From contig JAKIUE010000011.1 in the NCBI GenBank assembly GCA_021647715.1, positions 1 through 37,456 of the forward strand: a stretch of 37,456 nucleotides of DNA. The letters are read 5' to 3'. Source of the DNA: Sulfurovum sp. (GTDB lineage: Bacteria > Campylobacterota > Campylobacteria > Campylobacterales > Sulfurovaceae). This document shows, piece by piece, positions 25,324-26,874 of this stretch. A program made the position numbers and the translations under genes. The notes beneath the pieces were generated by a model. The model saw nothing but the letters and a program-made list of their open reading frames with translations. It had not been told where the DNA came from and ran no database searches. The first letter of the stretch is position 1; each line of letters opens with the position of its first letter.

Positions 25324-26607
25324 ATGAAAAAGAGTACTGTTACCTTAACCAATAACCAAACAGGAGATAGCTACGAATATAGCATATTGGAAAGCACAAG
25401 GGGTTCAAAGGTACTAGATATACGTACTTTCTTTTCAGACTCGGGTATGTTTACCTATGACCCAGGATTTACTTCCACTGCAGCTTGTGAATCTACCATT
25501 ACTTTCATAGATGGTAAAAAAGGAGAGCTACGATATAGAGGCATTGACATTGAAGCGTTAGCTAACAAGCATAGCTATCTTGAAACCTGTTTTCTGCTCC
25601 TTAACAGTCGCTTACCCTCAGAAAAAGAGTTACATAACTTTGACCTAGAGATACGCCACCGTGCCTACCTCCATAGAGGACTGCAAAAACTCTTTGATGC
25701 CTTTCCCGATAACGCTCACCCTATGGCAACACTCTCTGCAGCTGTTACCTCTCTAGCCTCTTTTTATGACGAGCATATAGACATGGAAAATGAAGACGAA
25801 TACCTAGAGATGGCACATCGTATCATCTCAAAGATTCCTACTTTAGCTGCTTTTGCATACAGACACTCACTAGGCATCCCTTTCGTAGAGCCAGACATTG
25901 ATTTAGGCTTTACTAAAAACTTCCTAACTATGATGCGTGCCTACCCTGGAGGTAAAATGCACCTCAGTGTTGAAGGACATGAAGATATCAAAGATGTGGA
26001 AATACGTGCACTAGATACCATCTTTACTCTACATGCAGACCATGAACAAAATGCTTCTACCACAGTGGTACGTGGTGTAGCCTCCACAGGAGCACACCCT
26101 TATGTTGCTATTAGTTCTGGTATCTCGGCACTTTGGGGACGAGCACATGGAGGAGCTAATGAGTCTGTCATAGCACAGATAGAATACATAGGCTCCGTAG
26201 ACAAAGTAAAAGCCTTCATAGAAAAAGCCAAAGACCCAGATGATGACTTTAGACTTATGGGCTTTGGACATAGGGTTTATAAAAACTTTGACCCTCGTGC
26301 CAAAATCTTAAAGGGCTTACAAGATGAGTTACGTGATGAACTAGGCTTAGATACCGAACTTATGAAAATCGCAAGAAAGATAGAAGAAATTGCTTTAAGT
26401 GATGACTATTTTGTTTCACGTAATCTTTATCCAAATATAGATTTTTATACGGGAATCATTTTAACCGCTTTAAAAATACCGAAGTCTATGTTCACTCCCA
26501 TTTTTGTAATTGGGAGAACAGTGGGATGGATAACCCAATGGATAGAATTTAAAAAAGATGAGACATCGAAGATTGCTAGACCTAGACAACTATACTCAGG
26601 AAAATAA
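25324..26607 (+). CDS. gltA: Citrate synthase
   Basis: 427 residues. Condenses oxaloacetate and acetyl-CoA to citrate; in autotrophic Campylobacterota it sits beside a reductive TCA cycle, in heterotrophic ones in the oxidative cycle. Catalytic and binding motifs are present: ISALWGRAHGGANE (His), GFGHRVYKNFDPRA (His and Arg), and DFYTGIIL. The end RPRQLYSGK matches type II hexameric enzymes. AAGGAGC is seven bases before ATG 25324. The gene is a single transcription unit flanked by repeated elements and followed 4 bases later by REP-like hairpins that may stabilise or end the transcript. Confidence 0.96.
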   Translation: MKKSTVTLTNNQTGDSYEYSILESTRGSKVLDIRTFFSDSGMFTYDPGFTSTAACESTITFIDGKKGELRYRGIDIEALANKHSYLETCFLLLNSRLPSEKELHNFDLEIRHRAYLHRGLQKLFDAFPDNAHPMATLSAAVTSLASFYDEHIDMENEDEYLEMAHRIISKIPTLAAFAYRHSLGIPFVEPDIDLGFTKNFLTMMRAYPGGKMHLSVEGHEDIKDVEIRALDTIFTLHADHEQNASTTVVRGVASTGAHPYVAISSGISALWGRAHGGANESVIAQIEYIGSVDKVKAFIEKAKDPDDDFRLMGFGHRVYKNFDPRAKILKGLQDELRDELGLDTELMKIARKIEEIALSDDYFVSRNLYPNIDFYTGIILTALKIPKSMFTPIFVIGRTVGWITQWIEFKKDETSKIARPRQLYSGK

Positions 26608-26611
26608 ATCC

Positions 26612-26714
26612 GTAGGGTGTTGTCCCACGACAACACCGAAACTTGAAATTTTGAAAATGTTCATATTTTTATCTCAGTTTGTATTTTTGGTGTTGTGAGG
26701 GCACAACACCCTAC
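26612..26714. repeat. Pair of GTAG-headed REP-like hairpins, tail to tail
   Basis: Left unit: GTAG then GGTGTTGTC, loop CCAC, GACAACACC (stem 26616-26637, perfect 9 bp). Right unit is inverted: GGTGTTGTG, loop AGGG, CACAACACC (26689-26710, perfect 9 bp) then CTAC. The two heads GTAGGGTGTTGT and ACAACACCCTAC are exact reverse complements at the outer edges, with 51 bases between hairpins. The layout GTAG plus stem-loop, in inverted pairs, matches REP units mobilised by RAYT transposases, though no RAYT gene is in this window. May act as bidirectional terminator. Confidence 0.65.
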
Positions 26715-26828: not shown

Positions 26829-26851
26829 TTATGCTATATCTGTTGTTTTCG

Positions 26852-26874
26852 TAGAGTGCGGTTGCTACCGCACC
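26852..26874 (+). repeat. Third GTAG-headed REP-like hairpin
   Basis: TTTTCGTAG is followed by GTGCGGT, loop TGCT, ACCGCAC, a perfect 7-bp stem. The head GTAG and 4-base loop match the pair after gltA, while the stem sequence differs, as expected for a different REP subgroup. Confidence 0.5.

Follow-up and report, generated by a model that had tools for sequence, protein, structure and literature searches.

A probable GTAG-type REPIN behind gltA in Sulfurovum and the whereabouts of its transposase

What kind of element stands directly behind the citrate synthase gene of this Sulfurovum genome, and what put it there? The window, meaning the whole 37,456-nucleotide stretch analysed here, is contig C115 of a 2.15-Mb draft genome (G000; 166 contigs, 97.5% complete). 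Its gltA gene (25324..26607, forward strand, with an NCBIfam citrate synthase match) has a stop codon ending at 26607 and is followed by two 26-nt units of one type: GTAG + GGTGTTGTC-CCAC-GACAACACC on the forward strand at 26612-26637, and GTAG + GGTGTTGTG-CCCT-CACAACACC on the reverse strand at 26689-26714, the heads facing outward and a 51-nt spacer lying between. The next open reading frame (ORF) downstream is convergent. Both stems are perfect over 9 bp and are preceded immediately by GTAG, the GTAG/GTRG form by which GTAG REPs (repetitive extragenic palindromic units) are recognised, and their sole difference is the ninth pair (C-G in one, G-C in the other). The first-pass annotation, which described two near-identical 9-bp stem-loops with 4-base loops and GTAG heads, pointing in opposite directions after the gltA stop, was exact in its coordinates. 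A repeat search reports the pair as a 46-nt inverted repeat, 74% complementary, and the 103-nt head-to-head doublet (26612-26714) folds to -24.6 kcal/mol as DNA (z -5.85) and to -43.5 kcal/mol as RNA (z -6.55), with none of 200 shuffles reaching either value. The Rfam scan of the window returned tRNA only and no REP-like family. A sequence and hairpin search also finds a single, weaker REP-like GTAG hairpin of another type at 26851-26873 (forward strand); the matching position in a relative, G022 (L242), reads GTAGGGTGCTGTTGCCACAGCACC. We read the doublet as a GTAG-type REPIN, very probably a non-autonomous miniature mobile element whose cognate REP-associated tyrosine transposase (RAYT) sits by recQ in sister species and whose copies in the window's own genome look orphaned.

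The repeats are numerous in that genome. The motif GTAGGGTGTTGTnnnnnnACAACACC occurs as 26 exact units and 4 with one mismatch, 30 in all (tens, not hundreds), while the reversed pattern used as a control occurs nowhere in it, a comparison that excludes chance. The units fall at 18 loci, as 12 head-to-head pairs, 1 tail-to-tail pair and 5 single recognised units, with doublet spacers of 19-84 nt. Measured against ORFs of at least 150 aa, 12 of the 18 loci overlap a stop codon or lie no more than 16 nt from one, and one is inside an ORF, priA. A genome-wide stem-loop search thus bears out the REP identity that the first-pass annotation had proposed, the copies being many, mostly paired and mostly intergenic. 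Among the 14 distinct units, five of the nine stem pairs are invariant and three vary by unpaired cells only; the ninth alone varies with compensation, in 7 of the 14 units on both sides (A-U, C-G, G-C), a level reached by 1 of 500 shuffles, while between types in relatives whole stems differ. By manual count, 10 of the 12 head-to-head pairs carry a CCCAYG loop in exactly one arm. Spacer likeness among the doublets is partial (12 of 66 pairs above z 3), and with homology this weak we do not claim descent of all doublets from one ancestor. Other REP types are present at low copy, for example at C133:19799, C138:16585 and C87:6727.

The transposase that would match these repeats is found in relatives. 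In six genomes (G015, G053, G031, G008, G058 and G024), and as a broken copy in a seventh (G050), a RAYT gene is flanked by REPs of exactly the window's type, and in 7 of 7 cases, the pseudogene included, it adjoins recQ. The RAYT of G015 scores 144.9 bits against NCBIfam model NF047646 (cut-off 80) and has one match among solved structures, E. coli TnpA-REP 4ER8 (E 1.4e-19); the HUH and tyrosine stretches, which hold the catalytic residues, align. RAYT-family matches occur in 52 of 61 same-genus genomes, the window's own included, and pass the cut-off in 34 of the 61. Most of the short RAYTs (~150-175 aa) have GTAG hairpins on their flanks, and each of these genes has its own stem type. A tree was built from 36 of 47 RAYT matches, leaving out seven fragments or pseudogenes (G043:C15, two in G040:C39, G052:C57, G052:C125, G043:C58, G015:C49) and four weak matches of a second type (G024:1050195, G018:C24, G053:C41, G019:C59). 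On this tree the 14 REP stem types, assigned by eye to 32 rows (the other 4 have no flanking GTAG hairpin, and the REPs of L192 lie ~0.6 kb from the RAYT), need 13 changes, the minimum, against a mean of 23.3 for shuffled labels, none of 200 shuffles being as low. The RAYTs of the GGTGTTGT type form a single clade (support 99/95). Stem type and RAYT are thus associated, as excerpts of PMC2817692 report for other bacteria, and the association here repeats that report in another phylum.

Copy number follows the enzyme loosely. Exact REPs number 14-66 (median 27) in the seven genomes with a cognate RAYT, one of them broken, against a median of 0 in the 54 genomes without it (Mann-Whitney p 5e-5). 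Within those 54, 29 genomes have none, 13 have 1-9 and 12 have at least 10, so the link between REP and RAYT is not strict. In a sample of the whole phylum the exact type is found in 7 of 397 genomes, all in the window's family.

By the mechanism that we favour, the cognate RAYT, a TnpA-REP-family HUH/tyrosine nuclease, would act on single-stranded DNA, binding, cutting and rejoining each hairpin along with the GTAG that guides it, and would copy or move the doublet into intergenic gaps, mostly behind stop codons. Loss of the RAYT from the window's genome would have left doublets and singles immobile, and transcription through gltA would probably give its mRNA the doublet as a 3' hairpin. The own-genome search agrees with such a loss. 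The first-pass expectation of a RAYT gene held only in relatives; the window's own genome yields five Y1_Tnp matches, none of which reaches the NCBIfam RAYT cut-off of 80 (the best score 68-70 bits) and none of which has a REP beside it. With the G015 RAYT as query, the best own-genome hit scores only 19.6 bits. The recQ end was located at the end of contig C38 (query residues 363-431, 69 aligned, 84% identical), and the order behind it is an HTH gene, a restriction-modification cassette (named by eye from its sequence) and rnhB, with no RAYT on this assembled 3' side. The stretch between recQ and rnhB that holds the HTH gene and the restriction-modification-like cassette is L331:3672-7933 (G000:C38), and just behind recQ there is an apparent decayed copy of the rnhB start. 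An earlier guess that the RAYT site fell in a gap, made when a recQ match was absent at E 1e-60, was dropped once the recQ end was found on C38 with other genes behind it.

Two alternatives would give the window's REPs a living transposase. The cognate RAYT might still be present in an unassembled gap elsewhere in the draft, the REPs then forming an active population. In favour of this, the assembly is broken into 166 contigs, with a REP unit just 10 bases from an end of C133 and recQ truncated where C38 ends, and the 26 exact copies seem little decayed. A RAYT in such a gap is possible, yet all seven window-type RAYTs stand beside recQ while the window's own recQ has its 3' side assembled without one, and G051, a complete single-contig genome, carries 10 exact REPs, no cognate RAYT and a lone REPIN at recQ, the site that in G024 holds REPIN and RAYT together. 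G051 demonstrates that orphan REP sets exist, and we consider an undetected RAYT unlikely. The other alternative assigns the REPs to the genome's own long Y1 transposases (C1:16852 and C141:4261, with a C-terminal HTH), which are among its best Y1_Tnp matches (weak, 68 bits against NF047646); contig C1 also carries two REP doublets, one of them ~2.2 kb from the long gene. Against it, neither gene has an adjoining REP, only 1 of 11 long-type genes in relatives lies near a GTAG REP pair (~0.4 kb off, and of another stem type), and excerpts of PMC6006769 describe subclasses with a large C-terminal domain as lacking REP association. Genes of the long type (257 aa, HTH-like C-terminus) occur commonly across the genus and lack flanking REPs (L036:4814-5587, L038:3847-4620), and transposases of ~257 aa were rejected as REP movers on that ground; that they serve the window's REPs is very unlikely. 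The REPs at about 18 loci of the window's genome thus seem to be a population that was inherited and no longer moves, and vertical inheritance of the REPs with repeated loss of the RAYT is the simplest reading.

The gltA end was compared across relatives. A gltA match was obtained in 30 of 61 genomes, and 29 loci were compared (the incomplete L266 was omitted, and the gene end was not found in G042). A GTAG REP lies just behind the gltA stop in 10 of the 29: window-type doublets in G000, G022, G013, G053, G051 (one head reading GCAG) and G009, a single unit in G020, and other types in G012 (GGTCGGGG), G060 (GGTGTGAC) and G010 (GCGTTTTC). Some relatives lack the element. In five REP-free genomes (G007, G054, G039, G059, G033) a GCCTC-stem hairpin (-7.4 to -11.0 kcal/mol) stands directly before a conserved AAATAAGC; this native hairpin appears at none of the 10 REP-bearing loci. 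A different palindrome, AGGGGTCTGGTGATTTGTGATG...CACCTGACCTCT, which is not a GTAG REP, occupies the site in G005, G018 and G008 (L245, L246, L239), another sequence is found in G014, seven loci have unrelated downstream sequence, and G046 and G058 carry neither REP nor hairpin.

On the gltA tree G007, which has the hairpin, is sister to G010, which has a REPIN (support 100/99), so the site has switched recently at least once; the tree is poorly resolved (6 of 24 inner branches starred), which makes the count of at least four changes in REP presence soft. The spacer of the window's doublet matches those of G013, G022 and G053 only as the reverse complement (z 5.7, 4.4 and 3.9; forward at most 0.3), so simple orthology with those REPINs fails, which points to an independent arrival or to inversion at the site. 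Nor is the site a clean insertion, since genomes with and without the element do not share one left flank. The gltA end would on this evidence be a tolerated site of repeated REP landing, the REPs perhaps taking over a 3' hairpin role. A bolder version, less likely than not, makes it a replaceable socket for hairpins: at least four stem types would have landed, once in opposite orientation, each replacing the native 3' hairpin in its function and leaving it to decay. If so, REPINs would have been exapted repeatedly as mRNA 3' ends and kept after loss of the transposase. The two gltA ends with neither REP nor hairpin count against this idea.

Could the pair then be nothing but a transcription terminator or mRNA 3' hairpin, with no mobile origin? 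Its strong RNA fold, its place directly after the stop, the convergent ORF beyond it and the other hairpin near the gltA end of five REP-free relatives would suit that reading. The same 26-mer, however, recurs at 18 loci of the same genome and beside RAYTs in relatives, and the only terminator-like match inside the pair is on the other strand. The genome-wide copies refute a terminator as the sole explanation, whose probability is close to nil. We give even less credence to the reading of the pair as the ends of a small IS200/IS605-type element or other MITE. Excerpts of PMC8266576 do describe hairpin ends and tetranucleotide guides in the same enzyme superfamily, but the outward GTAG heads, the inverted doublets with 19-84-nt spacers and the tie between stem type and RAYT clade speak otherwise, and this linkage to RAYTs disfavours it.

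A GTAG-type REPIN, the preferred reading, has published counterparts. Excerpts of Di Nocera et al. 2013 (PMC3733652) define a GTAG REP super-family of 24 families, record GTAG repeats from every division of the proteobacteria, epsilon among them, and list Sulfurovum NBC37-1 as having CGTC repeats as well as GTAG ones. The units described there are alike in having a GTAG head, a 6-9 bp stem and a short loop, in lying downstream of genes as head-to-head dimers, for the most part with 20-100 bp between the units, in lending the TAG of GTAG as a stop codon and inserting in replication genes, and in a heterodimer habit comparable to the CCCAYG loop in one arm seen here; the many stem types tied to their own RAYTs within one genus are a difference from those excerpts. 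The inverted doublet is the proposed mobile unit of the REPINs of Bertels and Rainey 2011 (PMC3116915, in excerpt), although here the RAYT was not found in the window's genome and mobility is inferred from sequence. With the E. coli TnpA-REP system, or REPtron (4ER8; PMC8266576, in excerpt), the relatives share a homologous RAYT (E 1.4e-19) flanked by its own REPs; the stem here is a perfect 9-bp one with no bulge, in contrast to E. coli REPs. The REPtron arrangement of a RAYT flanked by same-type REPs is present at seven loci in relatives (one a pseudogene) and not in the window's draft genome. RAYT loss leaving REP relics was proposed for Pseudomonas in the excerpted part of PMC3686654; in this work and PMC2817692, as here, REPs outlast the RAYT and REP type pairs with RAYT, the organisms being Pseudomonas, Stenotrophomonas and other gammaproteobacteria.

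A search of one open-access library for Sulfurovum with repetitive extragenic palindromic returned PMC3733652 alone, and nothing was returned for REP-associated tyrosine transposase in Sulfurimonas or for TnpAREP in epsilonproteobacteria. The initial remark that REP systems are little described in Campylobacterota is therefore fair, but the Sulfurovum NBC37-1 repeats were already in print in 2013, so the gltA element is not the first of its kind. Sulfurovum is useful for REP research on several counts. Over a dozen REP stem types occur within this one genus, and each goes with a RAYT clade; the cognate RAYT keeps a constant place, by recQ, and complete genomes exist that have it and that lack it; and a single gene end, that of gltA, carries REPs of various types in some species and a native hairpin in others. 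With this variety, comparison can address both the REP specificity of the RAYT and the persistence of REPs after the transposase is lost.

Some smaller observations belong here. A same-type REPIN lies in frame within priA (L001:1501-1571 = G000:C1:2959-3029), where it accounts for ~24 residues before the helicase domain, in agreement with the published bias of intragenic REPs toward replication and repair genes. The TAG of the GTAG head is the stop codon of the upstream gene at L006:1501-1504, L044:1501-1504 and L009:1578-1581, and the stop codon of recQ in L288, L289 and L290. Further stem types, each with its own RAYT, include GGGTCGAT, GGTTTGG and GGTGTGAC (L272 = G014:C45, L069, L072, L073, L271, L092), and such pairs are a possible data set for the residues that determine RAYT specificity.
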